In this document: positions 3,001 to 18,957 of the stretch, piece after piece
Layout of the letters: each line of letters starts with the position of its first letter
How positions within the stretch are numbered: position 1 is the stretch's first letter
IMG/VR virus record: IMGVR_UViG_3300030331_001547
Span: 1-23,410 of that record
DNA length: 23,410 nt
Origin: a virus
Strand: one strand, 5' to 3'
Translations under genes and position numbers: made by a program
The notes under the pieces: generated by a model
Database searches by the model: none
The model's input: the letters and a program-made list of their open reading frames with translations, nothing else
What the model was told of the DNA's origin: nothing

Positions 3001-6000
3001 GCAGAGTCGTTATATTATGAACACTAGACAGACTGCAAAAAACGCTATTAAAACAGAGATAAATAACTTAATATATTCAGAGGCATTTAAAGAAACTAGA
3101 GAGTCTAAAGATAGCTTTAACCCTACAGGTAAAAGAAAAGGTATGCCTACAGCAAAGTATATACAAGCCTTACAAAATCTTATAACACAAAACTCTGAAC
3201 AAATGCAGGAAAACGTTCAGCAGTATGGAGAAGAAGTTTCTAACTATTTATTTGATAATAATGGTAAGCCTAGAAAAGATTTCTTTGAATTAGTTAATGA
3301 AGAGTTCCAATCTTATAGAACATCTCCTATTGTAAAAATGGATTCAGAGTATGAAAGCTTTACAGAAAATGATGAAAACTTTGTTGAAGCATTTTTAGAA
3401 ACTAGAAATGGTGAAGGGCGTATGGGTGAGTTTATGTCAGACTTTGTAAAAAAACAAATATCCATAGGTGGTGTAGATATAAACCTAAGACACTTAAGAC
3501 AAGTTCTATATAACTCTGTAAAAGATATTAACGGTGTTATGTTAACAAAGGAGCAGTATGTAGAAAGGCAAGAGACTATGCTAGACATACTAAAAGAAGG
3601 AGAAACATTTACATCTGAAAATCAATTGTTAGCAAACTTTATGAATTATATGAAAGAAGTTTATAAAGGCGACAACACTATGCAGGGCAATCCTATAGAA
3701 CATATATATCAAGAGCTATCTAGTTTTAAGCAAATAGATTTCCATACCATATCTTTAGTAAACGGAAAGTATCAAATAAAAAAAGCTACTAAAATAGAAA
3801 ACAATATTATTAAAAATAGAGCCAGAAAGTTTTTTACAAACTCTTTTCAAGTAAAAGACAACAAGCTTACAGGAGAGGGCTTTACAGATAATATGGTTTC
3901 TAGACTTAATTTAGTCTCTAATTTAATGTCTGTTCATAACAAAATGATAGATAGCTCTTTGTCTGATGAGCAAAAAACAAAAATAGCAAAAGAGTTTGTT
4001 TACGAAAATTTATTTAAAAACAATAACGAGTTATATAGTAGCCCTGAAGCTATAGATGATGCTGTAGTTGAAGAGTTTGTTAAGTTTGAAAATGTAGAAG
4101 AATCTGCTACATTTAAATTAATTCAAGATTTAGCAAGAATAGAGTTTCAAGACAAAAAAGGCTCTAAACGTGCGTATGCGCAAGATGCAAGAAGAGGTAA
4201 AAAAGACCGAGCGCACGTTATAGAAGTTATTAAGAAGTTTGCGGAAAGAAATGATTTACAATTAGCTATAGAAGAAGGTAAGTTAGACCCTAATTTCAAA
4301 GAGAACTTTAAATCTTTAATGGAGTTCTCTATTAACAATAATAACTTTTTAAGAGCTATTAACAAAAAGACAACCACTCCAGCTAGATTAATTATTAACA
4401 GAGATGGTTCTTTAAATTTTGCACAGGTTTATCCAGACGCAAAACGTTTTTCACAAGGTGTTTTAAATAGTATATTAGAAAAGGCTATAGAAACACAAGA
4501 GTTAAAAGAGTTTGACTCTATGATGCTTATGCCTAACAATGAAAAGATTAATGTAACAGCTAAAATGAATTTTACTGATAATCTAATAGGTTATATTAAT
4601 CAAGAGATGAAAACAGAAGAAGGTAAGAAGAATCTGTTAGAGATGTTTGAGGGTAACTTGTATATAGAAAATGCTATAAAAAACAATACGCTTCCTGAGA
4701 TAGTAGAAGTAATGGGTTATGTGCGAGGGGAAGATGGATTTGCTAGGGGTAAAGCTCCAGCAAATGTATATACTTCAGCTCAAATAGGATTAATAGTAGA
4801 TGCTATAGAATCAGGAACAGATACTTATAGTCAAAGTGTAACAGTATTTTCTGACAAGAAAAATGAAGTTCACATTAAAAACACTAAGCTATTAACTTTA
4901 GAAGAGGCTCGTAAAGAAATAAAGAAGTTTGAAGGCAGTCCTGTAACATTTTTAAATGGAGATACTTATTTATCAGGAGACCAAAACTTTATAAATCAAT
5001 TAACTAAAGATTTAGAAACTTTTGTTAATAATAACAGTATTGAAGTAAGTCCTAATATATTAGAACAAGTAGCCCTAAACTATGCTATAAACAAAATGCA
5101 TGCCAAAGATTTATTATTAGGTCCTGCTAAATACTTTAAAAATGGTAGAGATTATATTAAAAGGTCAGCTGGTCCTATTGCATCAGGTATAAAGATGGGT
5201 GGAAGGATAGAGCCTATTATGATTAAAGATTCTGTGTTTTATTTAAACAAAGAAGATGAGTCTGATATTATATTCGAAGAACAGTATAACAAACTTCCAA
5301 ATAAAAAAAAGAAACAATATGATGAAGTTAACAGGACGGATGCTACATCATTTATTTTACCTGAAGATGGAAAAGATATTAAAAGTTTATTTGGTGGAGT
5401 AAGACAGCCAGGTAATCATTATAAGTTTGTATATAATGGACAAAACTTTGACAACAAACAATTTGAAAATAAATTTGGTAAAAGACTTCCTTTTTATGGA
5501 AAAACTAATGTATTTGTATTGTCAGATAATTTAATTGCTCAATATCCTAAATTTGCACAACTAGCTCAAGCATTAAGGTTAAGAAGAAAACAAGGCGTAG
5601 TTCCTGTTATTATGTTTAATTCAGCTATTAAAGTTCAAAGTAATGAAATGACAGAGTCTTTAGTAAGTGTAGATGAATTACAAGAGCTTTTAAAAAATGA
5701 AGGAAAGAAGCTGAACGAAATGCAAGATGACTTTTTTGTAGACAGAGAAAATGGATTGACTGGCTTAGATGGTAATAATTTCTTTTTACAAACGGAATTA
5801 GATAAATCTTCAAGTGATGCTATATTTGGAAAGCAGTTTATAGCCATGCTACTATCTTTACCACAAAACAGTAAAGAAGCTGTAGGTGTAGTTAAAAAGC
5901 TAATGAATGCTAGAAACTCTTTAAATGAAAATAAGCTAAGCAAGTTTAGACCTGACAATAAAGACTTTAGAGAAGCTGTTGCTAATGTTATGGACCCAAA

Positions 6001-9000
6001 GATATTTGGTGAAGCAATAATAGAGCAAGTAAGAAGCGGAAGTATAGACTCAAACACTATAGAGGTAATAAACAAAACCCTTAAATCGCAGTTCCAAAAA
6101 TCTATGAAGCTACGTGCTCCAGGTGGACTACTACATCAATCTACAGACTTTGCTATAGACACAGAGAACATATCTAAAGATAAGATATCTGAATCTCCAG
6201 GACTAAAAGGTTATGTAAAAGAAGATGGTAACATAAAAGAATATGCAGAGGTTATTGTAGATGAGTCTTTGGGTTATGGAGAAGGTGATGTTATTATACT
6301 ACAAAGGGTTCCTTTCTCTAAATTAGGAGATGCTGTAATAGGTAGGGTAAAAGGCACTGTGTCTAATTCAGGTTCTATGGTTATGATTCCAGCAGAGCTT
6401 TCACACAAGATAGGTTCTGATATGGACGGTGACTCATTGCATGTTGTAGGTAAGTTTAAAGAAGAAAAAAACAAAGCTCAAGAAGAATTCAATGCAGCTT
6501 TTCAGTCGGTTGTAGATATGTTAAGCAAGAAAGAGTATCAAGCATACATGGAGGCTGATATGAACTTTGAGTCTGCTGTAGAAGAAGCTGTAAGTAAATT
6601 TCCAAAAGGAATAACCCCAGTCAATGATAATAAAAATGATTTATCTATACTAGGTAATAACGATATATACAAATCAAATGTATTAGGTGCTGGTATGATA
6701 GGTATTGCGGCTGTGTTAAACACTACACAAAAGACATTAAGTAACTTTAAAGTTCTGGGACACCCATTAAAAAGCACTATTAATGGCAAAGAAATACAAA
6801 GAAGCTTTGAGGATGGTGGTAATGCATTTAAAAATGTAGCCTATATATTAAACATCTTTTTAGACAATGCAAGTAAAGGTAAGGCTAACCAGATGAATAT
6901 GAACATCCATACGTTTCCTATTATACAACAACTTGTATTAAGAAACGTAGAGTTCAATAATATTATGGCTATACTTAATCACCCTGCTACAAAAAGGGTT
7001 TCAGAAATACTATCTAATACAGAGGGTAGGCCAGCAGATAATATTCCAACAGCTATAGGACAAGCTTTACAAGAATTAAATGTTACATCTTTAGCTGAGT
7101 ATGATATACAAATAAATGATGGCTTTGTAAATCAAAATGCTGAAGTGTTAACTTTATTACGTGAAATCTATGATGTAAAGGAAGGGGCTGAGCAAAATTA
7201 TTTTGGTCAAGGAACTTCTTTCTTGGGAACTATTAGCACGTTAAATAACTTGGACAGTAAAATGCCTGAAAACATACACGGTGCTAGAGAGTTAAAGGCT
7301 AAAATAGATAAGTTAATAAAACATATATCTGGAACAAAAGGCTCTGCAATATTTGATGCATCTGATTTATATAAAAATGGACAGTTTACTTCACCTGTGT
7401 TACAAGAAAACTATACTAAACTAACTGAATATATAAATGATTTAACTAAGCTAGACCCTGTTCACCAATCAGAGCTTAAATCTCTAGCCACATCAGAAGA
7501 GTTTACTAATAAATTAAAATCATTACTGTTAAGAAAAGTAGGTCCAGAACTATATCAATACAATCCTGCAAATATTTTAGGAAGCGTAATGTCTGCTGAT
7601 GTAAAGGTTCTTGAAAAACTAGCTAATCCAGAATCAAAAATTCAAGAAGTTAACAATATAATTTTAGAAAATTTATTAAAAGTCTCTTTGAACAATTCGC
7701 AGTATGAGTTCTTTAAGTTTTTGACTATAGAAAAGGTAGGGTCAAACTACAAAATTAAACTAAACAGAAACATAAAAGAAAACTACGAATTAGCACAAGA
7801 GGCTTTTGAAAAACTACCACTTAACATGCAAGACTATTTAGCTCATTATGATTTAGTTTTTAATAATCATACGGGTATAGATGCTATATTACCTTACATG
7901 GGTAAGTCAAAAAAATCAAAAAGATTTGGTATATACAAATTAGGTAAAAAAATAAATTTAGAAAAGGTAGCAGAAGGGGTGGATTTAAAAAGAGTAGAAA
8001 ATTATATAAAAAGTCCAACAATTACCGCGAAAATGAATTACTTTTTTATAGAAAAGGCTAGAGAAGAACTTGTTATAGAAGAAAACGAGTCAGGCGAGGT
8101 AATGTATTCTAGAAAGGTTCAGCCAGAGGTGTTGGGTGTAGCTAAAGGTAAACAAATTATAGACCAAGATGGTAACTTTGGTAGCACAGCTATGTATTCT
8201 TATTCAGAACAAATAGATTCAGAAGAAAATATGCCTGGTATTAAAGGTATGATTGAATATTTAAGAGTTGCTGCAGGTAAATCTTTTGAAAGCAAACAAG
8301 ACATGGAGGCTAGAATGGAGACAAAGCAAAAAGAGGCTTACGAAGAAATGTATAAAAAATACAGAGAGGACTTTGTTAAAGTGTCTGAGTTAGAAGCTCA
8401 ACTATTATCTACTGATGAAAGTGGTAATATGAAAATTGAATCTGATGCATATACTGTAGATGATTTAATTAAACAAATGAAAGAGTTAAACACGTTTGAC
8501 AAAACTGCTAAAACAAGACTTTATAACACTATTGGTCAAGTTGTAGGAGCTAAAATAGCATTAAAGGTTATTCAAACACAACTTAACAATGCAGAAAAAA
8601 ACGGTCTTTCTCAAGAAATAATAGATAAATTAGAAAAAGAAAAACAAGACATAAAATTAAAAAAACAAGGGGGTGATGTTAGTAAGGTTGCTAAATGGTT
8701 AAGCACTGATATAAGTGATTCAATTAGAGGTGAAATAGCAGAACTTCTGAATGTTCTTAATCAAGAAGAGATGTTGTATGGAATAGAAATGGATAAGGTT
8801 AATAATAAGTTTAAAATGGATAAAACTTATGAAAACTTATTAAAATCTAAACTTGGTAAAGGTAAAAGTAGCCTGTGGTTTTTAAAGTATGGCTTGTATA
8901 AACTTAGTTATGTGGCTAGATATTATTATAATCAAAGAATTTTTGGAAACATAATGATAGAAGAACAAAAAGAAGTCCCTGCAATGATTGAAAGAAATGG

Positions 9001-10969
9001 CAAACAAGTACAGGTTGGAACTAAATATGCTAGAGTGTTAAGATTAAAAAATGAAGCAGAGGCTAAAAATTCTAATTTTTCTAAAGAAGAACAAGCTTAT
9101 TACAATATGTATAAGCAGGTAACTGAAACTTTCCAAAATCATTTATCACAAAAAATAGGACAAGATGGAGAAGTGGTCTTAAAAGAAAAAAGAAAAGATT
9201 ATATACCTCACAGAAGTATGTCTAGGAATGAAATGATGATTGCTAGGAATTTAACTTCTGCTTATATATTAAATAACTACTCGCATGAACTATCTAAGAT
9301 TGTGGTCGTAAACAGAAAAACTGGAGAGTCTAAACCTTTGCGTGACTTTATTGAAGAATATAAGATTTTACAAATAGATAAAAATACAAAGGGCTCTATT
9401 AAATTAGGCTCTGCGCAAGATAGAGCTTTGAGGTCAGAAATAAAACAACTTATATCTGATGCTAATAGGTATTTAAAAAGAGGAACTGATGCAGATGGTA
9501 ATATTATCATTAGAGAACAAGCGCAAGATAATGAAATGGGTAAATACTTTAACAGATATGTAGAAGAACGTTCTAGTTCTGCTGAATTTAAAGGCTCAAT
9601 AGATATGCACGCAGCTTTACAAGACTACGTTAGAACTAATTTATTTTATCATGGTTTAGATTCTCAGTCAGGATTTAAATTTAAAGGTATAACAGAGCAG
9701 ATACCATTAATAGATGGTATAATGGGTTATCAATCTTTAAGGGGCAGAGAAAACGCAAGAACTTGGGTAAAAGAGTTATTGTTAGAAAGATATGTTTTGA
9801 AAAAGACAACTAAAAAATCTTTATTTACAGCTAGTGGAGAAAGAATTTGGGCAGACAAAATATTTGAAAATTTACATAAGTGGACAATGTTTATTGGTTT
9901 AGGTTTTAACTTTACTGCGGGTGCTGGTAACATATTAATAGGTAAGTACAACACCTTTAGACAAGCTGGTTGGACTAAATTTAGAGTTGGTGAAGCTAGA
10001 TTTTTTGGTATGACTAAAAAAGGTTTTGATAAAAACATTGCTAATAAAACTAGAAAGATAACTACATACTTTGGTTTATTAAATGAATCTTCTGCACAAA
10101 TTAGTGAAGATATATTTAGAGGTCCATTTGGAGATTTAGTGTTTGTTGCCATGGTAGGTTCAGAGAAGTATATACAAAGAGCACAGTTCGCAGGTATGAT
10201 GACAGATGCTGAGTTTGATTCTTTTGAAATAGTAAATGGTCAAGTAAAAGTAAAACCAGGCCAAAACACTGTAGAGAAAAACAAAACTAATCAAGAAGTA
10301 TTTGATGAGTTATCTAAAAATGCTGACAGATATAAGTCAAAAATATTTGAAGTGCAGGGTCAGGGTTATACAGCATTAGACCAAAGATTAATACAACACT
10401 ATTCTATTGTAAATGGTTTGTTACAATTTAAGAGATGGTTGCCTACATTTATATTAGATAGAATGTCTGCAGAAAAACAACTAAGAAGTGGAGAGTGGTA
10501 CATAGGTACAGCTCCTGCTATGATATCTTATATGAAAGATGTTATACTTGACCCAGATGGTAAAGATGTAAGAGGTAAGTTTGGCGCTGCCTTTAGAAAG
10601 CTTCCAAAACACAGACAAGAGGCTGTAGCTAGAGCTTATAGAGGTGTGCTTGGTATGATGACTGTAGTTTGTTTATATGCATTTACAGGAGGGTTTAGTG
10701 AAGATGATGATGAAAGTGCTGTACAGAAACAATTAAAAAGAACTTTCTGGGATATGAACCTTATGTTAAACATAGACAAATGGCAATATATGATTTCTAT
10801 GCCAGCAGCACAAACAGGTGAAAACTTATTATTTGGTATGAAAGATTTAGTTACTAGAGCAGAGTATCAAAGAGATGCAAAGTATGGTGATAAAGGAGAT
10901 TTAAAAGCGCGTGGTAGATTAGCTAGATTGTTCCCTAATATTGTTAGAGGTACGTTTGCTAAAGAGTAA
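5..10969 (+). CDS. Giant virion-associated polyprotein with RNA-polymerase-like DxDGD and HExxH motifs
   Basis: At least 3654 residues. The frame is open to the window edge, so the ATG at 5 may be internal and the true start upstream. Seen in order: Gly/Ala-rich hydrophobic segments near residues 160-187, 226-246 and 366-385; a Lys/Glu/Gln-rich coiled-coil region at about 480-670; an HExxH zinc-peptidase motif (H798, E799, H802) with EEAVA at 904-908 as a possible third ligand; GGLLHQ at 2040-2045; then R2101-x-P2103 followed by IPAELSHKIGSDMDGD with D2139, D2141 and D2143; and hydrophobic stretches near 3300-3315 and 3546-3564. The spacing from RxP to GSDxDGD is that of the double-psi beta-barrel holding the catalytic Mg-binding aspartates of two-barrel RNA polymerases; crAss-like phages carry a similar signature in a huge virion protein. 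Inference: it is packaged in the capsid and ejected with the DNA, and may transcribe early genes. The polymerase call is motif-based only. It could instead be a large polyvalent protein that has lost activity. Confidence 0.75.
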   Translation: MDLPQEASEGAKTAAFNSDINYVDYTAGGEFLRSFTAGVGQVFNSFADTMDWLTGTDSVTGETTPVSPAGVIEKFGPATAQMGPAGPSIVVLDKLVGAETGLNIADAFRAVGDALESVDDNINMSGIDGQFTTLDENGNLKISFAQMANPKFWYTKVAQQIPNLLTFMVGGAAVGKLAVKGAKAIGVADKIAFKGPSLLKSIGTGLGSKAMGKLPNTVIKGKDIAGFIGGGAGANMLEGAMIAGEAHRQVLEKGGTLDQASAAAYGVFEDNLKWMAIDALQYNILTKGLKGIGAAVKLNSGINFKTAIARFALGSGVAVNEGILEQFQEVHQDWSTKKNTAEVLGEKFDTGFFEYFNDPAVAETRVVAFSLGILGAGTGIVNQGVREMAISTIDSIAERSRIIDKKIKQTGLSEEYDENLLFAQATKEINEKGYSKEFTKAEAVAQKVEEIREKFLAGIVAAGEIELGNMHIDRLVKEQKLTQEEGDSFKQKMNEIQEAFNKYDNVGMGRLTFEAKKEMAYLAYYQSKNDEVIQQNKDYYQAQREKVEANTKMSDKVKKQNLEDIAAEEKQTIEILEETGKGYQQSMDNLYDESRILAEKLKKEREDKINQRLAQQQEEQEQESPTQIKEQEIKQEKKKEVEKIKSEIEKLRKRVVDNKTTKSKQSNQRKIFRLLEQKYIAQGLSKENAKKTVKEVRSILDANLKFTLSKKGQQEIETGQMDDVKIEMKKGKRFFALEKALTEKFRKKNVNIVIGDFSNTRFSKEIGQSFDNVRLNGAAMGLSAYLDLNNLTRSVLRHEFSHIYMSVYWNSGPMKALKKIVLKSNFYKEAQRNYYDQLIFKKDGVKYRLSDIINQQEIQGYLEWRKKTKKADKSVDGYLASQRSKLTKLGYEKLTASQQRFVLEEAVAKVLEAPLSDSQIKKAFTTQDSPTAKRKIDGFFSYVSSVFTRQDSKQILEAANIEGLVTELKDAVGAVDIDMKKVKPFTKRVRRQKGYGNKMQSRYIMNTRQTAKNAIKTEINNLIYSEAFKETRESKDSFNPTGKRKGMPTAKYIQALQNLITQNSEQMQENVQQYGEEVSNYLFDNNGKPRKDFFELVNEEFQSYRTSPIVKMDSEYESFTENDENFVEAFLETRNGEGRMGEFMSDFVKKQISIGGVDINLRHLRQVLYNSVKDINGVMLTKEQYVERQETMLDILKEGETFTSENQLLANFMNYMKEVYKGDNTMQGNPIEHIYQELSSFKQIDFHTISLVNGKYQIKKATKIENNIIKNRARKFFTNSFQVKDNKLTGEGFTDNMVSRLNLVSNLMSVHNKMIDSSLSDEQKTKIAKEFVYENLFKNNNELYSSPEAIDDAVVEEFVKFENVEESATFKLIQDLARIEFQDKKGSKRAYAQDARRGKKDRAHVIEVIKKFAERNDLQLAIEEGKLDPNFKENFKSLMEFSINNNNFLRAINKKTTTPARLIINRDGSLNFAQVYPDAKRFSQGVLNSILEKAIETQELKEFDSMMLMPNNEKINVTAKMNFTDNLIGYINQEMKTEEGKKNLLEMFEGNLYIENAIKNNTLPEIVEVMGYVRGEDGFARGKAPANVYTSAQIGLIVDAIESGTDTYSQSVTVFSDKKNEVHIKNTKLLTLEEARKEIKKFEGSPVTFLNGDTYLSGDQNFINQLTKDLETFVNNNSIEVSPNILEQVALNYAINKMHAKDLLLGPAKYFKNGRDYIKRSAGPIASGIKMGGRIEPIMIKDSVFYLNKEDESDIIFEEQYNKLPNKKKKQYDEVNRTDATSFILPEDGKDIKSLFGGVRQPGNHYKFVYNGQNFDNKQFENKFGKRLPFYGKTNVFVLSDNLIAQYPKFAQLAQALRLRRKQGVVPVIMFNSAIKVQSNEMTESLVSVDELQELLKNEGKKLNEMQDDFFVDRENGLTGLDGNNFFLQTELDKSSSDAIFGKQFIAMLLSLPQNSKEAVGVVKKLMNARNSLNENKLSKFRPDNKDFREAVANVMDPKIFGEAIIEQVRSGSIDSNTIEVINKTLKSQFQKSMKLRAPGGLLHQSTDFAIDTENISKDKISESPGLKGYVKEDGNIKEYAEVIVDESLGYGEGDVIILQRVPFSKLGDAVIGRVKGTVSNSGSMVMIPAELSHKIGSDMDGDSLHVVGKFKEEKNKAQEEFNAAFQSVVDMLSKKEYQAYMEADMNFESAVEEAVSKFPKGITPVNDNKNDLSILGNNDIYKSNVLGAGMIGIAAVLNTTQKTLSNFKVLGHPLKSTINGKEIQRSFEDGGNAFKNVAYILNIFLDNASKGKANQMNMNIHTFPIIQQLVLRNVEFNNIMAILNHPATKRVSEILSNTEGRPADNIPTAIGQALQELNVTSLAEYDIQINDGFVNQNAEVLTLLREIYDVKEGAEQNYFGQGTSFLGTISTLNNLDSKMPENIHGARELKAKIDKLIKHISGTKGSAIFDASDLYKNGQFTSPVLQENYTKLTEYINDLTKLDPVHQSELKSLATSEEFTNKLKSLLLRKVGPELYQYNPANILGSVMSADVKVLEKLANPESKIQEVNNIILENLLKVSLNNSQYEFFKFLTIEKVGSNYKIKLNRNIKENYELAQEAFEKLPLNMQDYLAHYDLVFNNHTGIDAILPYMGKSKKSKRFGIYKLGKKINLEKVAEGVDLKRVENYIKSPTITAKMNYFFIEKAREELVIEENESGEVMYSRKVQPEVLGVAKGKQIIDQDGNFGSTAMYSYSEQIDSEENMPGIKGMIEYLRVAAGKSFESKQDMEARMETKQKEAYEEMYKKYREDFVKVSELEAQLLSTDESGNMKIESDAYTVDDLIKQMKELNTFDKTAKTRLYNTIGQVVGAKIALKVIQTQLNNAEKNGLSQEIIDKLEKEKQDIKLKKQGGDVSKVAKWLSTDISDSIRGEIAELLNVLNQEEMLYGIEMDKVNNKFKMDKTYENLLKSKLGKGKSSLWFLKYGLYKLSYVARYYYNQRIFGNIMIEEQKEVPAMIERNGKQVQVGTKYARVLRLKNEAEAKNSNFSKEEQAYYNMYKQVTETFQNHLSQKIGQDGEVVLKEKRKDYIPHRSMSRNEMMIARNLTSAYILNNYSHELSKIVVVNRKTGESKPLRDFIEEYKILQIDKNTKGSIKLGSAQDRALRSEIKQLISDANRYLKRGTDADGNIIIREQAQDNEMGKYFNRYVEERSSSAEFKGSIDMHAALQDYVRTNLFYHGLDSQSGFKFKGITEQIPLIDGIMGYQSLRGRENARTWVKELLLERYVLKKTTKKSLFTASGERIWADKIFENLHKWTMFIGLGFNFTAGAGNILIGKYNTFRQAGWTKFRVGEARFFGMTKKGFDKNIANKTRKITTYFGLLNESSAQISEDIFRGPFGDLVFVAMVGSEKYIQRAQFAGMMTDAEFDSFEIVNGQVKVKPGQNTVEKNKTNQEVFDELSKNADRYKSKIFEVQGQGYTALDQRLIQHYSIVNGLLQFKRWLPTFILDRMSAEKQLRSGEWYIGTAPAMISYMKDVILDPDGKDVRGKFGAAFRKLPKHRQEAVARAYRGVLGMMTVVCLYAFTGGFSEDDDESAVQKQLKRTFWDMNLMLNIDKWQYMISMPAAQTGENLLFGMKDLVTRAEYQRDAKYGDKGDLKARGRLARLFPNIVRGTFAKE

Positions 10970-12795: not shown

Positions 12796-13866
12796 ATGAA
12801 AAATATATTAGTCATATTAGTATTACTATGTTCTGTGGCTAATGCCCAAATAGAAAACTTTTTTAAATATTCTACTTTTTATGTATCTAGCTCAATGAGT
12901 TCTTCTACATTGGAAGATGGTATGTATAAAATAGAAAACAAAGTCTTAATGGATATTACAGAAGTAAATCCATTTGATTATAACTACACTATAGGTCTGC
13001 GTAAGGTGGCTCGTTTTGATTACGAACACAAAGTTAAATCATTCTATGATGGTACAGAGTCACAGATATCAAATAAAGCTCCTATAGGCAACGCAAAAGG
13101 CTTTGAATACTTAGCAAACCTTTCTTTGGTACGAGATAGAGGAGAGGAGTTTGTAAATCAGGATTTCTTCCTACGTTATTTGAGTGATTCGTACCTTATT
13201 AAAAGTCAGTTTGTAGACAATCAAAAGTATGATTTAAAGTATATATTATCAGAGTTAAGATGGAGAAAAAACGTAGGAAACTTTGATTTTTCTATAGGTG
13301 CAGCATTTAGAGTGCACCCTGTTTATGGGATAGTTCCTATAAACGAATCTTGGGACCCAGCTGTAACACCTTTTTCTGCAATAGCAGAAGATTTTGGTTA
13401 TGTAAGCGAACAGTGGTCACAAGGAGGCTACGTAAACTATGATTGGTTTGATATTTCTAGTGGAGATTCAGTTCAAGTAGCACATTCAACAGGAGAATTT
13501 ATGAGACATTACTTTGGTAATGCTATAGATGAATATAATGACAGAGAACTTAAGAAATTAGGTTTACAAAAAGAATTATCTGTTATATTCGGGGTTGCTT
13601 ATTATAAGTACACTTCTGATTTTTGGCTACATGGCTGGATGAATGTCCTGCCCTACCATATAGGACTAGACGATTATAGTTTTGATTACAGTGATAATCA
13701 GTGGTCAGAGGAGGGCATACCAGCTATTATAGAATGGGATGCTGGACTTGTTATGGGGTATAGAATAACTAGAAATCTTGGCTTTTTTGTAGAAGGGACG
13801 CACCAAAGATATTGGATGCGCCCCATATATGAATTTAAGATTGGAATAAATTTCTTATTTTTATAG
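12796..13866 (+). CDS. Phage-encoded outer-membrane beta-barrel-like exported protein
   Basis: 356 residues beginning with a classical signal peptide (MKNILVILVLLCSVANA, predicted cleavage ANA|Q at 17/18; Gln at +1 is typical of flavobacterial exported proteins). The mature part is rich in Tyr, Phe, Trp and Asp with alternating hydrophobic positions. It ends in amphipathic strands (GFFVEGTHQRYW, then YEFKIGINFLFL) like those that close outer-membrane barrels. No catalytic motif is seen. It is followed after one base by another exported protein. Possible roles, all inferred: remodelling the host outer membrane late in infection, superinfection exclusion, a lysis aid, or a virion protein that happens to carry a cleavable leader. 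Confidence 0.7.
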   Translation: MKNILVILVLLCSVANAQIENFFKYSTFYVSSSMSSSTLEDGMYKIENKVLMDITEVNPFDYNYTIGLRKVARFDYEHKVKSFYDGTESQISNKAPIGNAKGFEYLANLSLVRDRGEEFVNQDFFLRYLSDSYLIKSQFVDNQKYDLKYILSELRWRKNVGNFDFSIGAAFRVHPVYGIVPINESWDPAVTPFSAIAEDFGYVSEQWSQGGYVNYDWFDISSGDSVQVAHSTGEFMRHYFGNAIDEYNDRELKKLGLQKELSVIFGVAYYKYTSDFWLHGWMNVLPYHIGLDDYSFDYSDNQWSEEGIPAIIEWDAGLVMGYRITRNLGFFVEGTHQRYWMRPIYEFKIGINFLFL

Positions 13867-13867
13867 T

Positions 13868-14542
13868 ATGAAAAGATTATTATTTATAATATTATTTGTA
13901 TTTGGTTATGGATTTAGTCAAACAAACTGTCAACTATGTGTTGAACAAAATGGATTTTATTGTGGAGATGACCCTGCTAATTGGACTCAGTATTCTCCTA
14001 ATGGCTGCGTTCCTAATGGTCTTAATGACCTTTTTTATCTTAATGATGGGTGGGAAGATTGTGTCGATGGTAGCGACGAGCAAGACGCTGTTCCTACAAC
14101 GATTTTAGATTGTTTGCCGCCACTTCCTGATTGTGATACTATATTCTTAACAGAATACGAAACTATATTTGATACTATAATAAACACAGAATTTGTTTAT
14201 GAAATTATAATAGACACCGTAGAAGTAGAGGTGTTTGTACCAGAATATATATATGTAATAGATACTGTAACTGTATATGAAGATATTTTAGACACATTGT
14301 TTGTAGATGTAATAGAGTATGTAGATGTTATGGTTTATGATACTATTATAGAAATAGAATATGTAGAGTTTATAGAATATGTAGATTGTGAAACGGGTTT
14401 ACCTTGTTCGTCTAATCTACAAGAAATAATAAAAGCAACAGAGGGCAATAATAGAATGTATAACTTATTAGGTCAGGCAATCAGAGAACCTAAGGGTTTA
14501 TATATCCAAAATGGAAAAATTAAGTATAAATTAAAAAATTAA
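13868..14542 (+). CDS. Secreted protein with LDLa-like motif and T9SS-like C-terminal sorting signal
   Basis: 224 residues. A signal peptide (residues 1-17, GFS|Q) precedes a Cys-rich segment (C21, C24, C32, C47, C65) with NGCVPN and then GWEDCVDGSDEQ (61-72). That is the calcium-binding end of LDL-receptor class A modules (C-x-D-G-S-D-E), although the last Cys is late (C82). Residues about 90-173 are a low-complexity acidic beta-prone tract of repeating Asp-Thr-Ile/Val and Glu-Tyr-Val units. The last 30 residues (MYNLLGQ... KGLYIQNGK... then a Lys-rich end) match the type A T9SS sorting domain, in which YdllGq and GiYi-ngkK are the hallmarks. Inference: it is exported through the host Sec and T9SS pathways and displayed on or released from the cell surface. 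Confidence 0.7.
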   Translation: MKRLLFIILFVFGYGFSQTNCQLCVEQNGFYCGDDPANWTQYSPNGCVPNGLNDLFYLNDGWEDCVDGSDEQDAVPTTILDCLPPLPDCDTIFLTEYETIFDTIINTEFVYEIIIDTVEVEVFVPEYIYVIDTVTVYEDILDTLFVDVIEYVDVMVYDTIIEIEYVEFIEYVDCETGLPCSSNLQEIIKATEGNNRMYNLLGQAIREPKGLYIQNGKIKYKLKN

Positions 14543-14547
14543 AAGTC

Positions 14548-15072
14548 ATGCCTAATAAAAAAAGAAAAAAATTATTTAAAATAACAAGATTTACAGATGA
14601 ACTTGGAAATAAAAAAGGTTCTCTTAAAGAATACAGAAATCCTTTTACAGGAGCGTATAGAACAGTAGAAAAAGATAGAAGAAACATAACTGGTACCGGT
14701 GAACTTTCTAAAACAAAACAGGTAGGAACACGTAAAAAAGGATTAAAAAAAATAAAATCTAAGAGACCTGGTATGGGATATTCAAAGGTGAAGTATATGC
14801 ACGGAGGAATGACAATGAGCTCTCCTAGTTTATTAGACAATGTAAAGACTACTTATGAAATGGGTGGTGTTATGGAAAAATATGCTATGGGTGGAAAACT
14901 AAAAGAGGTTATGCCAAATCAAAAAGGATTAGCAAAGTTGCCTAAAGAGGTTAGAAACAAAATGGGATATATGAAAAAAGGTGGAATGATGAAAGAGTAT
15001 AGAAAAGGTGGAAAAATGGAATATGGTCATGGAGGAATGATGAATGGAGGAATGATGAGACAACACGACTAA
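14548..15072 (+). CDS. Basic protein with repeated Y-x-x-GG-x-M units and C-terminal QHD
   Basis: 174 residues. The N-terminal half is Lys/Arg-rich (KKRKKLFK, RKKGLKKIKSKRPG). From about residue 83 onward GG recurs seven times, in units such as YMHGGM, YEMGGV, YAMGGK, YMKKGGMM, YRKGGKM and YGHGGMM, ending NGGMMRQHD. The unit resembles the single GG-(I/M) plus Q-x-D ending found on five other small proteins nearby, so this gene may be the repeated form of that tag. It has no membrane helix or signal peptide and is probably disordered or DNA-binding. The function is unknown; similar Gly/Met/Lys-rich small proteins are common in environmental phage genomes. Confidence 0.65.
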   Translation: MPNKKRKKLFKITRFTDELGNKKGSLKEYRNPFTGAYRTVEKDRRNITGTGELSKTKQVGTRKKGLKKIKSKRPGMGYSKVKYMHGGMTMSSPSLLDNVKTTYEMGGVMEKYAMGGKLKEVMPNQKGLAKLPKEVRNKMGYMKKGGMMKEYRKGGKMEYGHGGMMNGGMMRQHD

Positions 15073-15074
15073 TC

Positions 15075-15362
15075 ATGCCAGGTAGAAAAAAATATAGAAA
15101 TATAGCTTCTTCTATGGGTGAAAACTCTAAAGTAATAACCACTGACACAAAAATTAAAGAAAAAGGTAAAAGGGGAAAATTTAAATATAAATTTAACCCT
15201 GACGGAACTCTTAAAAAAACTGTTAGAAAAAAAGGTTTGAGAAGAGTAGTAGATAAACCTAAAAGAGATTCTAGAAAAACTATGGCTAATAGATTTAGAA
15301 ATATCATAGATGAAAGAAGAACTTCTAGGTTTATGGATGGTGGAATAATTCAACACGATTAA
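15075..15362 (+). CDS. Small basic protein ending GGIIQHD
   Basis: 95 residues, Lys/Arg-rich throughout, with no hydrophobic helix. Starts MPGRKKYRN; mid-protein Lys-Gly-Lys-Arg-Gly-Lys runs; ends RFMDGGIIQHD. It begins two bases after the previous stop (TAATCATG). The final seven residues are identical to the end of the 18688-18957 product, although the rest of the two proteins does not match. It is likely expressed late with the lysis and structural genes; the role is unknown, with nucleic-acid or virion-interior binding inferred from charge. Confidence 0.65.
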   Translation: MPGRKKYRNIASSMGENSKVITTDTKIKEKGKRGKFKYKFNPDGTLKKTVRKKGLRRVVDKPKRDSRKTMANRFRNIIDERRTSRFMDGGIIQHD

Positions 15363-15364
15363 TT

Positions 15365-15598
15365 ATGAATATATTTAAAGACGATAACAATTGGAATGAA
15401 AAGTCTATAGTAGGATTTATAGCTTTTCTTATTATGGTTGTTGTTATGGTAATAGATTTAATAACTGGAGCTGTAGGTTCTGATTTAGTTATAAATAAAT
15501 TTGTGTATGATTCATTTGTATGGGTTGTTCTTGGCTGTTTTGGAATAAGTGGTGTAGAAAAGTTTTCAAATAAAAAATGTAATAATTGTCCTAAATAA
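15365..15598 (+). CDS. Small two-helix membrane protein, holin-like
   Basis: 77 residues with two hydrophobic segments (about 15-36, IVGFIAFLIMVVVMVIDL, and 48-64, around FVWVVLGCFGI), a charged N-terminus and a short Lys/Cys-rich C-terminal tail (NKKCNNC). Size and topology fit a class II holin or a small membrane accessory protein of the lysis cassette. Its stop codon overlaps the next start by one base (TAATG), indicating translational coupling. A second, longer holin candidate lies at 17196, so which one sets lysis timing is open. Confidence 0.6.
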   Translation: MNIFKDDNNWNEKSIVGFIAFLIMVVVMVIDLITGAVGSDLVINKFVYDSFVWVVLGCFGISGVEKFSNKKCNNCPK

Positions 15599-15882
15599 TG
15601 TCAAAAGAAATATCAGAAGATTCAAAGTTTGAAGTTAGTATTAAAACCCTAGGTGGACTAGCGGTGTTAATATTTGCTTTTGTAGGCATGTGGTTTACTC
15701 TTCAAGCTGAGATAGCTGAAGCAAAGTTACTTCCTATACCGCCTGACCCTGAAGTAACAAAAATGGAATTTGATATGAAAGACCAAATGATTAGACAGAC
15801 TATATTAGATACACAAGAAGACATGAAAGAGGTAAAAGAAGACTTAAAGTATCTAAGAAACAAACTAGATAACATGAATTAA
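15598..15882 (+). CDS. Membrane-anchored coiled-coil protein, spanin-like topology
   Basis: 94 residues: a short cytoplasmic-type N-terminus, one hydrophobic segment (about 18-35, LGGLAVLIFAFVGMWFTL), a Pro-rich linker (PIPPDPE) and a C-terminal amphipathic coiled coil (about 58-94) rich in Glu, Lys, Asp and Met. A type II anchor with a periplasmic coiled coil is the layout of inner-membrane spanins, and the neighbours are holin-like and endolysin-like. No o-spanin lipoprotein partner with a lipobox is seen nested in or next to it, so the spanin assignment is tentative. It overlaps the upstream stop by one base. Confidence 0.5.
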   Translation: MSKEISEDSKFEVSIKTLGGLAVLIFAFVGMWFTLQAEIAEAKLLPIPPDPEVTKMEFDMKDQMIRQTILDTQEDMKEVKEDLKYLRNKLDNMN

Positions 15883-15883
15883 T

Positions 15884-16273
15884 ATGAATATTGCCAACGT
15901 TCTATATGTACTAATGATGTTGTTTTTTTTTGGATTAGGAATAACATTTGGACAAGGCTTTATTTGTTCTGATAATTTTAAAAATACAATAGCAAAAGAT
16001 ATAGTTGCTATAGAATTTTGGGCCTCTTGGAATTCATCTAATGAGTTTTCAGAGTTTTCTAAACTAAAAGAATGCTCTAAATATAGAGTAGATGTAGGTA
16101 AATGTAACGAAATACAAAAACAGTATAGTGTTACAGGTATTCCTACTGTTATTATATTTGAAAACGGAGAAGAAAAAGAAAGGTTTAAACCTAATATTAT
16201 GTTTCAATTAAATGCAGATAGAAAAACTATACAACATTCAATAGACACATTAACATTAAATAAATTTCAATAA
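15884..16273 (+). CDS. Exported thioredoxin-fold protein lacking the CxxC active site
   Basis: 129 residues. An N-terminal hydrophobic segment (about 6-22, ending TFGQG) serves as signal peptide or anchor. The thioredoxin signature follows: VAIEFWASWNSSNEF (41-55), YRVDV, then the cis-proline loop TGIPTVIIFENGEE (84-97). Where thioredoxins have WCxxC there is W49-N-S-S-N53, so both redox cysteines are missing while the fold-defining residues are kept. The only cysteines (C28, C64, C74) lie elsewhere. Family knowledge says such proteins cannot do disulfide exchange in the usual way; a chaperone, inhibitor or binding role in the periplasm is inferred. It ends at the A of the next gene's ATG (TAATG overlap). 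Confidence 0.7.
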   Translation: MNIANVLYVLMMLFFFGLGITFGQGFICSDNFKNTIAKDIVAIEFWASWNSSNEFSEFSKLKECSKYRVDVGKCNEIQKQYSVTGIPTVIIFENGEEKERFKPNIMFQLNADRKTIQHSIDTLTLNKFQ

Positions 16274-16584
16274 TGACAGATTATAGTAAAAAATTTCGTA
16301 AAGAAAGAGATAAGTTTAAAAAAAAGAATATAAGGAGAAAAAAAAGGGGTAAAGAACTTATTGACCCTAGTGAATATACTTTTAAATATAGACCAAAAGG
16401 CTCAGGTCTTTTTAGTAAAAGAAAAACTTCTACAGTAGAGACAAGAAGTGAAAAACAAAAAAGAACAAAGCGTAAAATGCCACAACAATCAATACAGGGT
16501 GTAGGACGAGATATAGCATCTTCTAGATTTGGTCGTGGTGGTATTACAAAAGGTAGAGATATGTTTACTCAACAATATGATTAA
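16273..16584 (+). CDS. Small basic protein ending GGITKGRDMFTQQYD
   Basis: 103 residues, strongly basic (KKFRKERDKFKKKNIRRKKRG in the first 30), with a central YTFKYRPKGSG segment and a second Lys/Arg block. The end carries GRGGIT and, after a spacer, QQYD, fitting the GG...Q-x-D ending shared by six proteins of this cassette. No membrane or catalytic motif is seen. It sits between the thioredoxin-like and endolysin-like genes and overlaps the former by one base. Function unknown. Confidence 0.65.
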   Translation: MTDYSKKFRKERDKFKKKNIRRKKRGKELIDPSEYTFKYRPKGSGLFSKRKTSTVETRSEKQKRTKRKMPQQSIQGVGRDIASSRFGRGGITKGRDMFTQQYD

Positions 16585-16585
16585 T

Positions 16586-17194
16586 ATGAAATTAACTAAA
16601 GAAATAATAGAAGAGGGCGTAAGGTCAAAAGGTTATAGATGGTTTGAAAAAGGCGACTATAATCTTAATATAGTAGGCGTAAGAAACTCTAACACAGGCA
16701 CAGAAGTTACTAATAAGTTTGATGATAAGATAACATTATCATTTAAATGTGATGGTCAGTGGGAGTTTTATTGTTATGATTGTACTACTGACCCCGGTAA
16801 ATATTGGGTGGAGAATATAATGAGAGTGGAGGGTGTGGCCGTATTGAAGGAAGGACAGTATCGTGGTTCTCATAAAATTAGATTACATCAAGGTAGATAC
16901 GAGGCTTTAGGACAAAATGGTCCTGTAACTGTATATAGAGACGCTAATAAGGACAATAAGTTTGATTTAAGCGACGATAATACACAAACTGGACTCTTTG
17001 GTATAAACATACACAGAGCAACAAAATGGGGGGGTAAAAAATCTTCTAAGGTAGATAAGTGGTCTGCTGGATGTCAAGTAATAGCTGCTAATGACGATTG
17101 GCATGAGTTTATGGATATTTGTAGAGTGGCTAGAGATACTTGGGGTAACAGCTTTACTTATACTTTATTAGACAGTAAGGATTTAAAAATATAA
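16586..17194 (+). CDS. Putative endolysin with YkuD/L,D-transpeptidase-like H...SxGC motif
   Basis: 202 residues from the ATG at 16586, chosen over upstream ATGs (16529, 16577) because it follows the previous stop by one base (TAATATG), the junction used elsewhere in this operon. Conserved-looking blocks: CTTDPGKYW (66-74), YEALGQNGPVTVYRD (105-119), FGINIHRA (138-145) and KWSAGCQVI (158-166). H143 and C163 separated as H-x16-S-A-G-C reproduce the catalytic His...(S/T)-x-G-C pattern of the L,D-transpeptidase (YkuD) fold, although the usual His before Gly is Ala. Adjacent to holin-like genes, so a peptidoglycan-cleaving lysin acting on cross-bridges is the likely role. No signal peptide, so export would depend on a holin. 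Confidence 0.6.
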   Translation: MKLTKEIIEEGVRSKGYRWFEKGDYNLNIVGVRNSNTGTEVTNKFDDKITLSFKCDGQWEFYCYDCTTDPGKYWVENIMRVEGVAVLKEGQYRGSHKIRLHQGRYEALGQNGPVTVYRDANKDNKFDLSDDNTQTGLFGINIHRATKWGGKKSSKVDKWSAGCQVIAANDDWHEFMDICRVARDTWGNSFTYTLLDSKDLKI

Positions 17195-17195
17195 T

Positions 17196-17582
17196 ATGTT
17201 TAAAGAACTTTTAAAATCATTAGTAGGTGACGCAAGTAACATTATAGATAATGTTGTAACTACAAAGGAGGAAAAAATAAGATTAAAGAATGAGATGAAG
17301 CAAATGCTTTTAAATTCTGAAGCTGATTTACAAAGAAATGTAACAGATAGATGGAAAGCAGATATGGCATCTGATTCTTGGTTAAGTAAAAATGTAAGAC
17401 CAATAACTCTTATATTTATGTTAGTTTGTACTATGTTATTGATATTTATTGATGCAGGTGCAATAGACTTTACAGTAGAAGACAAATGGACAGATTTGTT
17501 ACAAATTGTTTTGATTACTATTGTAGGTAGCTATTTTGGAGGAAGGTCAATAGAAAAATTAAAAAATGGCAAAGGGAAATAA
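17196..17582 (+). CDS. Putative holin of the 3TM / gene-transfer-agent type
   Basis: 128 residues. An amphipathic, charged N-terminal half (KEEKIRLKNEMKQML) is followed by DRWKADMASDSWLSKNVRP (51-69), two clear hydrophobic helices (about 69-88 and 101-116) and the ending GSYFGGRSIEKLK. The DRW-x-AD...SWLSKN-x-RP block and the YFGGRS-x-EK tail are hallmarks I associate with phage holin families of the GTA 3TM type. It lies one base after the endolysin candidate (TAATATG), completing a holin-lysin pair. Its last codons overlap the start of the 41-residue gene at 17566. Confidence 0.7.
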   Translation: MFKELLKSLVGDASNIIDNVVTTKEEKIRLKNEMKQMLLNSEADLQRNVTDRWKADMASDSWLSKNVRPITLIFMLVCTMLLIFIDAGAIDFTVEDKWTDLLQIVLITIVGSYFGGRSIEKLKNGKGK

Positions 17583-17691
17583 TTTTAAATTTGTAGGGAA
17601 CAAAAGAAGTAAAAGACCTGGTGTACATTCAAAAAATGCATCTAAAGGTCAGAGTGCATATAAAAAACAATATAGAGGACAAGGTAGATAG
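17566..17691 (+). CDS. 41-residue basic protein (KRPGVHSK... YRGQGR)
   Basis: A short gene starting at the ATG inside the last codons of the holin gene (17-base overlap, different frame). The product begins MAKGNNFKFVGNKRSKRPG, contains VHSKNASKG, and ends KKQYRGQGR. The KRPGVH-x-K and YRGQGR ends match a tiny conserved protein I recognise from other environmental phages, which supports it as a real gene. Lys/Arg/Gly-rich and likely disordered. Unlike six neighbours it does not end in Q-x-D. Followed by tagTTATGGC, the start context of the next gene. Confidence 0.65.
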   Translation: MAKGNNFKFVGNKRSKRPGVHSKNASKGQSAYKKQYRGQGR

Positions 17692-17693
17692 TT

Positions 17694-18023
17694 ATGGCTA
17701 AAACACCCGCATGGCAACGTAAAGAAGGTAAAAATCCTAGTGGAGGATTGAACAAGAAAGGTGTAGCCTCTTATAGAAGAGCAAATCCAGGCTCTAAATT
17801 AAAAACAGCCGTAACTACTGACCCTAAAAAATTAAAAAAAGGTAGCAAAGCTGCTAAAAGAAGAAAGTCTTTTTGTGCTAGAATGAAAGGAATGAAGAAA
17901 AGATTGACTAGTGCAAAGACAGCAAGAGACCCTAATTCAAGAATTAATAAGTCATTGCGTAAATGGAACTGTGAAAAAGGGGGTATAGTTCCAATGCGTG
18001 ACGAATATGGACAATTAGATTAA
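17694..18023 (+). CDS. Conserved small phage protein with TPAWQRKEGK and RRKSFCARM motifs
   Basis: 109 residues. Motifs: TPAWQRKEGKNPSGGLN at the N-terminus, GVASYRRANPGSKLKTAV, then AKRRKSFCARMKGMKKRL and DPNSRINKSLRKWNC. This series is a widely distributed uncharacterised phage family (I believe a Pfam DUF, possibly DUF6321; the number is from memory). The two Cys (C61 and C93) lie in the conserved blocks. After the family domain ends at WNC there is an extra tail, EKGGIVPMRDEYGQLD, with the GG...Q-x-D ending shared by neighbouring unrelated proteins. That tail therefore looks like an appended tag. The role is unknown; strongly basic. Confidence 0.75.
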   Translation: MAKTPAWQRKEGKNPSGGLNKKGVASYRRANPGSKLKTAVTTDPKKLKKGSKAAKRRKSFCARMKGMKKRLTSAKTARDPNSRINKSLRKWNCEKGGIVPMRDEYGQLD

Positions 18024-18028
18024 TAGTT

Positions 18029-18196
18029 ATGGCAAAAAAATCAGTAAAAGCTCCAGCAGGTTTCCATTGGATGAAAAAAGGAAACAATACATTTAAGTTA
18101 ATGAAACATACAGGTAAATTTAAACCGCATCCAGGTGGAAGTTTATCTGCAAGTTTTGATGTACAAAAAAGACATAGAGTTGCAAAGAAAAAGTAA
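18029..18196 (+). CDS. 55-residue basic protein (PAGFHWMKKG...)
   Basis: Product begins MAKKSVKAPAGFHWMKKGN, continues FKLMKHTGKFKPHPGGSL, and ends QKRHRVAKKK. The paired blocks GFHWMKKG and KLMKHTGKF, with a central GGS, resemble a conserved small phage family seen beside the other basic proteins of this cassette. It begins five bases after the previous stop in the recurrent context TAGTTATGGC. Its 3' end overlaps the following gene in another frame by up to 38 bases, depending on that gene's start. Function unknown; basic and soluble. Confidence 0.65.
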   Translation: MAKKSVKAPAGFHWMKKGNNTFKLMKHTGKFKPHPGGSLSASFDVQKRHRVAKKK

Positions 18197-18473
18197 AGAC
18201 CCAAAAGTAGGGACAGGAAAAAAACCAAAAGGTTCTGGACGTAGATTGTATACTGATGAGAATCCTAAGGATACTGTAAGTATTAAATATGCTACAGAGG
18301 CAGATGCTAGAGCTACTGCAGCTAAAGTAAAAAGAATTAATAAATCTTTTGCTAGAAAAATACAAATACTAACAGTTGGAGAACAAAGGTCAAAGTATGG
18401 TGGTAAACCTAGACAAGCAGGTATATTTAAAAGAGCAAAACAAGCTATAAGAAGAAACCGTAAAAAAAAATAA
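18159..18473 (+). CDS. Conserved basic phage protein (GTGKKPKGSGRRLYTDENPKD)
   Basis: 104 residues if translated from the ATG at 18159. The conserved region runs from KDPKVGTGKKPKGSGRRL through YTDENPKDTVSIKYAT, to FARKIQILTVGEQRSKYG, and ends in a Lys/Arg tail (RRNRKKK). I recognise this as an uncharacterised family recurrent in phages, in which the conserved part begins close to the N-terminus. A TTG at 18180 (giving LQRKSKDPK) is therefore a plausible alternative start. An ATG further upstream at 18135 would deepen the overlap with the 55-residue gene and is less likely. The long overlap suggests translational coupling. No catalytic motif; nucleic-acid binding inferred from charge only. 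Confidence 0.7.
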   Translation: MYKKDIELQRKSKDPKVGTGKKPKGSGRRLYTDENPKDTVSIKYATEADARATAAKVKRINKSFARKIQILTVGEQRSKYGGKPRQAGIFKRAKQAIRRNRKKK

Positions 18474-18476
18474 ATT

Positions 18477-18686
18477 ATGCCAAAAGACGCGTGTTACCAT
18501 AAAGTTGTTCGTAGATACGGACCAAAGACATCAGCATACAGGAGTGGTGCTATGGCTAAATGTAGAAAAGTTGGAGTCTCTAACTGGGGAGAAGGTGGAA
18601 AGAAAAAGAAAAGAAGAGGAGGTGTTGTTAGAAAGATGAAACATGGTGGAATGATTAAATGTTTATTAGAGTATCAAAAAGATTGA
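18477..18686 (+). CDS. Small Cys-containing basic protein (DACYHKV) with GGMI...QKD ending
   Basis: 69 residues. The N-terminal half DACYHKVVRRYGPKTSAYRSGAMAKCRKVG with two Cys (C6, C29), and then NWGEGGKKKKRRGG, matches a recurrent uncharacterised phage family (D-A-C-Y-x-K-V ... S-A-Y-x-S-G-A ... K-C-R-K). The two Cys and His could bind a metal, but four ligands are not evident. After the Lys/Arg stretch the protein ends KMKHGGMIKCLLEYQKD, again GG-(M) with a spacer and terminal Q-x-D. Three bases separate it from the previous stop. Confidence 0.7.
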   Translation: MPKDACYHKVVRRYGPKTSAYRSGAMAKCRKVGVSNWGEGGKKKKRRGGVVRKMKHGGMIKCLLEYQKD

Positions 18687-18687
18687 T

Positions 18688-18957
18688 ATGGCTGTAAGAA
18701 AAACAAAAGCTGGATTAAGACTTAAGCGTTGGTTTAAAGAAGATTGGCGTACACCAAAAGGTAAAAAAGATTATAAAGGTGGGGAAAATACTTTTAGACC
18801 AACTAAAAGAATAAGTAAAGATACTCCTACCACATGGAGTGAGTTAAGTCCATCTGAAAAAGCTAGAGCTCAAAAAGAAAAAAACACAAAAGGTAGAGTT
18901 AGTAGATATAAAAAAAAGAAAAGATTTAGTAAAGGTGGTATAATACAACATGACTAG
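18688..18957 (+). CDS. Conserved basic protein (GLRLKRWFKEDW) ending GGIIQHD
   Basis: 89 residues. GLRLKRWFKEDWRTPKGKKDY, then TFRPTKRISKDTPTTWSEL and SPSEKARAQKEK, form a conserved pattern (K-R-W-F-K-E-x-W ... R-P-T-K-R-x-S-x-x-T-P-x-T) that I recall from uncharacterised proteins of phages and some large eukaryotic viruses. The final KGGIIQHD repeats exactly the last seven residues of the 15075-15362 product. The gene follows the previous stop by one base and precedes TAGTTATGGC. Function unknown; Trp/Lys-rich, likely nucleic-acid-binding. Confidence 0.7.
   Translation: MAVRKTKAGLRLKRWFKEDWRTPKGKKDYKGGENTFRPTKRISKDTPTTWSELSPSEKARAQKEKNTKGRVSRYKKKKRFSKGGIIQHD

Follow-up and report, generated by a model that had tools for sequence, protein, structure and literature searches.

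The gene described here lies in a viral DNA stretch of 23,410 nucleotides (IMG/VR record IMGVR_UViG_3300030331_001547, positions 1 to 23,410; referred to as the window) and encodes a protein of 224 residues with a Sec-type signal peptide. Judged by its sequence, the C-terminal tail of this protein corresponds to the short class of type IX secretion system (T9SS) C-terminal domains (CTDs) described for Prevotella intermedia and not to the 72-position classical domain. The tail is likely to be a T9SS targeting signal, in which case the protein would be exported by Sec and then carried to the surface by the T9SS of the host.

From the N- to the C-terminus, the protein contains a Sec-type signal ending in FSQ (MKRLLFIILFVFGYGFSQT, recognized by inspection and by the Bacteroidetes signal-peptide Q-rule, PMC5837995), a Cys-rich LDLa-like head, a DT/EY-rich stalk, and then DCETGLPCSSNLQEIIKATEGNNRMYNLLGQAIREPKGLYIQNGKIKYKLKN (Table 1). 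In viral contigs, 133 relatives of the window protein were confirmed, and the conservation counts given here refer to 75 distinct homologue sequences. These range in whole length from 169 to 314 residues, and longer proteins have more DT motifs (r=0.93); conservation is seen in the head and in the tail, and the stalk varies in length. For the head, stalk, and tail, dN/dS is 0.15, 0.18, and about 0.20, respectively. Residues D60, D64, D70, and E71 of the head are invariant. The PF00057 profile scored 13.7 bits on the window protein, below its cut-off of 24.1, and gave weak matches to 37 of 46 family members (best E 7e-4). Because of this sub-threshold score and the replacement of the usual fourth Cys by Asn, the head appears to be LDLa-like only and not a full LDL receptor class A domain. 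No relatives of the whole protein were found in the genome contigs, and the LDLa-like head was not found in cells. The AF2 model of the window protein was poor (pLDDT 50 overall), which weighs against the targeting reading, and its fold search gave no match; within this model the C-terminal strands 211-214 and 217-220 were predicted as a hairpin with a pLDDT of about 76, where a short CTD would be expected to form a three-stranded sheet.

Table 1. Features of the cassette and the adjoining lysis genes in the window, with the basis of each assignment
Feature	Position	Strand	Basis
Outer-membrane beta-barrel protein, 356 aa, Q-rule signal peptide	12796..13866	+	Stop 1 nt before start of T9SS-tail gene
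T9SS short-CTD cargo-like phage protein, 224 aa	13868..14542	+	ORF; 133 relatives in viral contigs
Signal peptide region, Q-rule, FSQ, Q18 invariant	13868..13921	+	Homologue alignment; rule from PMC5837995
LDLa-like Cys-rich head, aa 20-82	13925..14113	+	Sub-threshold PF00057 and conservation
DT/EY-rich stalk, aa 90-172, variable length	14135..14383	+	Length versus DT motif count
C-terminal module DC-TGLPC ... end, aa 173-224, predicted short T9SS CTD	14384..14539	+	Conserved in 75/75; hhalign
Small membrane protein, 77 aa, cassette member in some phages	15365..15598	+	tblastn matches in 29/80 loci
N-terminal TM and C-terminal coiled-coil protein, i-spanin-like topology by inspection	15598..15882	+	Conserved gene order
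Exported thioredoxin-fold protein without CxxC, Q-rule signal peptide	15884..16273	+	PF00085 E 1.3e-8
Endolysin, phrog_33083-like	16586..17194	+	PHROGs match
Holin, phrog_3427	17196..17582	+	PHROGs match

A preliminary description of the DNA had read residues 195-224 as a T9SS sorting signal on a protein with a Sec signal peptide. These residues of ORF 13868-14542 were confirmed at window positions 14450-14539 (NRMYNLLGQAIREPKGLYIQNGKIKYKLKN), and they carry a motif that exceeds chance: motif B is Y198-G202, motif D is G210-I213, and motif E is K217-K223. Y198, G202, I213, and G216 are invariant, Y212 is conserved in 99% of the homologues and G210 in 93%. If motif D may have S or D at its G position and F at its Y position, 75/75 homologues contain all three elements (Y-x-x-G, [GSD]-x-[YF]-I, and basic residues at the end). 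From the DC to the stop there are 50-52 residues in 75/75, or about 44 when counted from a GI-like site at which cleavage is presumed. In every one of the 75, the tail forms the very C-terminus of a protein with a signal peptide, as judged by the Q-rule and the sequence, and every one has Gln at the expected cleavage site of the signal peptide. The best 80 tail matches in viral contigs all belong to the same LDLa-like family, with none on other heads.

The description had gone further and matched the tail to the type A T9SS sorting domain, for which it named the TIGR04183 profile as a check, and this assignment was not supported. The profile (curated cut-off 23 bits) was silent at E<=10 on the window protein, on the record of the window (G000), and on 44 tails of the protein and its relatives, and Pfam reported no sorting domain in the window protein or its relatives, both of which count against a targeting signal. 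However, TIGR04183 also misses 10/10 bacterial tails of the same type; therefore, the profile is blind to the short tail class, and TIGR04183 and Pfam were set aside as arbiters of the sorting signal. The earlier reading is supported insofar as it puts a T9SS-type signal at the C-terminus of a phage protein exported by Sec, but not insofar as it takes this signal for the classical type A domain. A sub-threshold TIGR04183 score together with an unconserved C-terminus had been named as the outcome that would speak against the reading; the score is indeed sub-threshold, but the conservation of the C-terminus is strong. The phage tail shares the vYnllGq, the GlYi, and the Lys-rich end of the type A domain, but it differs in having no profile match, in having no NP motif upstream, and in being about 25 residues shorter.

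The class to which the tail does correspond was described in a recent study by Ye et al. (2025, PMC11969387), in which 48 short CTDs of about 40-55 residues were reported for P. intermedia. These have a motif B with Tyr and an invariant Gly, a motif D of GxY followed by Ile, a basic motif E, and a PT/GI-type cleavage site, and both cleavage and C-terminal glycosylation were shown experimentally. According to earlier work cited in PMC11285876, the signal of Porphyromonas gingivalis HBP35 maps to the last 22 residues. The phage tail has every short-CTD sequence feature that can be checked (C-terminal site, motifs B, D, and E, and length). The experimental backing for short CTDs comes from one species only, which tempers the targeting reading.

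Similar tails are found in bacteria. A phage-only tail alignment was scanned against one genome per species from about 85,000 prokaryote species, and 18 loci were confirmed, 18/18 in Bacteroidota, with the match ending 0-5 residues before the C-terminus of mostly long ORFs. A phage-only HMM placed 30/30 significant matches on bacterial loci at ORF C-termini. The phage tails were aligned by hhalign to 27 bacterial short tails of the Prevotellaceae type with a Prob of 98.9 and an E of 1.4e-17 over 42 columns, and the score was 74.7 versus at most 13.7 in 40 column-shuffled controls. The bacterial tail set is not blind in this comparison, as the 27-column profile that collected it held phage and some bacterial tails, whereas the scan of about 85,000 species used phage tails only; the hhalign alignment also reaches the upstream T/GI-like cleavage region, which is outside the 27 positions of the collecting profile. 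It could be argued from the silence of TIGR04183 that the C-terminal resemblance is due to chance or composition, but conservation across 75 sequences, the consistent C-terminal placement, and the hhalign result against the shuffled null make this so improbable as to be nearly negligible. Less favorable to the targeting reading is the likeness to classical long CTDs, taken from one Flavobacteriales genome (G001), which is marginal at a score of 17.9 versus a null maximum of 15.1. When 296 genomes of the phylum were sampled with the 27-residue profile, only G001 was strong and the others were near chance level.

Close bacterial counterparts are found in Flavobacteriales. A chromosomal protein of 634 residues (L082) has a signal peptide, GCTDxxACN repeats, and a closely similar stalk and tail at its end, and a search of 395 genomes of its order gave three further strong cases. 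One of these (L271) is an LRR protein beside lysS and rpiB and another (L272) adjoins O-acyltransferase-type and metG-like genes, the neighbors being named by inspection of their translations; the third (L263) is a fragment. Between each of the four tails and the phage tail nearest to it, identity is 61-67%. The heads of the four proteins are related neither to that of the phage protein nor among themselves, save for the GCTD repeats common to L263 and L082. Because unrelated heads bear this module in host genomes, an exchange of the tail with surface proteins of the host is most likely; the host tails fall among the phage tails, and the sequence is too short to give the direction of transfer.

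The preliminary description had also proposed a T9SS-bearing Bacteroidota as the host. Four small-genome Flavobacteriales that bear the module (G001, G334, G348, and G374) all have SprA and GldM (4/4), and G001 has 36 classical CTD matches. The nearest relatives of the window's endolysin are found in Bacteroides phages and crAss-like phages. On account of the SprA and GldM in the module-bearing genomes and of this endolysin, the best inference is a Flavobacteriales-like Bacteroidota host with a T9SS, in line with the proposal. Of the tail-bearing genomes, 10/12 and 9/10 gave a SprA_N match; three lack SprA, and one of these has GldM. Two genomes with such tails (G305 and G526) gave no SprA or GldM match, which counts against the targeting reading, although both are MAGs and possibly incomplete. 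The host bacteria are presumably marine, as suggested by the isolate name of a MAG. By tblastn, no named phage record matches the window protein, the barrel, or the thioredoxin-like protein, which is a further weakness since host and export are thereby inferred.

The gene is part of a conserved cassette. In 80/80 relative loci, a barrel homologue (median identity 52%) precedes the T9SS-tail gene on the same strand, the gap between the two being 1-3 nt in 57/78, and the genes upstream of the barrel match those of the window in only 6-8 of 80. The barrel was modelled by AF2 as a beta-barrel (pLDDT 77), and its best structural match has a Z of 10.8 to generic outer-membrane barrels, with tied Z values that give the fold class only; for this reason a PorV/SprF-like identity is not claimed. 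The barrel family has no match in Pfam, NCBIfam, PHROGs, or PDB sequences, and it resembles one unnamed viral model, A0A516LKJ4 (TMq 0.69, 30% identity). The order of the LDLa-like, coiled-coil, and thioredoxin-fold genes is the same in 72/72 loci with all three, and the latter two genes overlap by 4 nt in 49/72 relatives. CxxC is present in 0/65 relatives of the thioredoxin-fold protein, which is therefore a fold match only and not a redox thioredoxin. The Q-rule residue is found in 69/70 barrels, in all of the T9SS-tail proteins, and in 65/65 thioredoxin-fold proteins, versus 5/58 in the coiled-coil control. Among the types tested, an endolysin or holin was recognized in 40/55 loci with enough downstream sequence, and two unrelated endolysin types occupy the same slot after the cassette. 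The cassette order, the Q-rule exports, and the nearby endolysin and holin indicate that the T9SS-tail protein probably belongs to a late, envelope-directed module.

Other features of these phages were also observed. Within window positions 14548-18957, small Lys/Arg-rich proteins end in Gly-Gly ... HD/YD/LD (GGMMRQHD, GGIIQHD twice, QQYD, and GQLD), and the corresponding basic proteins of two relatives (L009 and L014) end in SYSYQDFLDL instead; the shared ends look like a lineage-specific C-terminal tag. Upstream of the cassette, these two relatives have GCTDxxAxNYNxxA repeats (L009 32-1879 and L014 23-1681), which are typical of Flavobacteriales surface proteins. The window also has a giant ORF of 3654 residues (5-10969) with GSDMDGDSL at residues 2137-2145, near position 6419, that resembles the DxDGD of RNA polymerases; its product is possibly a virion-packaged polymerase.

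Several roles can be considered for the T9SS-tail protein. It is plausible, if a little short of probable, that the barrel, surface protein, coiled-coil, and thioredoxin-fold protein carry out an outer-membrane disruption step in lysis that replaces spanins. The recurring order of barrel, LDLa-like, (TM), coiled-coil, and thioredoxin-fold genes before endolysin and holin, with neighboring genes that overlap or abut, agrees with this, as does the lack of recognizable spanins in some Bacteroidota phages, including B124-14 and P2559S/Y (PMC6139136). On the other hand, no lysis gene was recognized in the flanking sequence covered for 15/55 loci, the endolysin is on the upstream side in 8, no spanin homology was found, and proximity does not equal function. 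By inspection the coiled-coil protein has the topology of an i-spanin, and no o-spanin lipoprotein was identified. A surface-type tail, a binding-type head, a variable stalk, and an outer-membrane partner would also suit a protein that acts with the barrel to bind or mask the receptor of the phage and stops superinfection or the re-adsorption of progeny to debris. This is possible but somewhat doubtful: a receptor blocker would be expected to vary, but strong conservation of the head is seen in phages whose upstream genes differ, and the synteny with lysis genes is left unexplained. It is improbable that the protein belongs to the virion as a fibre or decoration, with a stalk and tail that merely resemble host surface modules: the genes immediately upstream of the cassette look structural and GCTDxxAxNYN repeats occur on another gene of relative phages, but the invariant Q-rule signal peptide, the T9SS-type cargo tail, and exported neighbors that are not virion-like argue otherwise.

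The targeting reading brings together the conserved tail, the Flavobacteriales proteins with a similar stalk and tail, the Q-rule residue of the three exported cassette proteins, and the lysis synteny. A phage of Flavobacteriales-like Bacteroidota would make the protein, probably late in infection, and the protein would be exported by Sec with the signal peptide cut before Gln. The host type IX system would then recognize the short CTD of about 45-50 residues and move the protein across the outer membrane, where PorU-type cleavage and anchoring may follow. The LDLa-like head, possibly binding Ca2+, would be displayed on its stalk at the cell surface and act with the upstream barrel and the downstream coiled-coil and thioredoxin-fold proteins as an envelope module that is usually near lysis genes. 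Its purpose would be, as a first guess, to alter or break the outer membrane at lysis and, as a second, to block the receptor or superinfection. That T9SS-exported cargo, barrel, inner-membrane coiled coil, and CxxC-less thioredoxin fold form a mobile envelope module performing the outer-membrane lysis step in many uncultured Bacteroidota phages is unlikely in this full form; if true, lysis would follow a pathway that depends on the T9SS and resembles neither spanins nor disruptins.

These results indicate that, throughout a large group of uncultured phages, selection maintains a surface-export signal of the host. They would extend short T9SS signals beyond Prevotella-type bacteria, and as the standard profile misses the short class, both phage and host cargo are undercounted. 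A T9SS export tied to a lysis-adjacent phage module provides a connection, open to testing, between secretion by the host and the release or exclusion of phages.

Reports of phage-encoded T9SS cargo date to 2019 and 2020. The use of a T9SS by a phage, called unusual in the preliminary description, is thus less so, as crAss-BACON lineages have ORFs with a T9SS sorting domain (PMC6949934) and Cryophage carries T9SS cargo genes (PMC7468147). Proteins with Q-rule signal peptides are found in P. gingivalis phages (PMC10367356), which likewise follow the Bacteroidetes Q-rule; there, unlike here, the T9SS is named 0 times in the main text. The short CTDs of P. intermedia (PMC11969387) share with the phage tail the C-terminal position, the length of about 40-55 residues, the Tyr/Gly motif B, the GxYI motif D, the basic motif E, and the N-terminal signal peptide. 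The phage tail differs in being phage-encoded, in a motif B that is usually GQ and not GR/GK, in the preceding DC..GxPC and DT stalk, in the Flavobacteriales-type hosts, and in cleavage and glycan linkage that are only predicted. Within the literature searched, what appears to be new is that short CTDs occur in phages and in Flavobacteriales and how widespread they are, together with the chimeric relationship with proteins of the host and the cassette next to lysis genes. Cryophage and crAss-BACON are alike in their phage-encoded T9SS sorting domains, but theirs are on enzyme, PA14, or BACON heads, whereas here a short CTD is on an LDLa-like stalk protein in a lysis-adjacent cassette that is conserved over 100 or more contigs.
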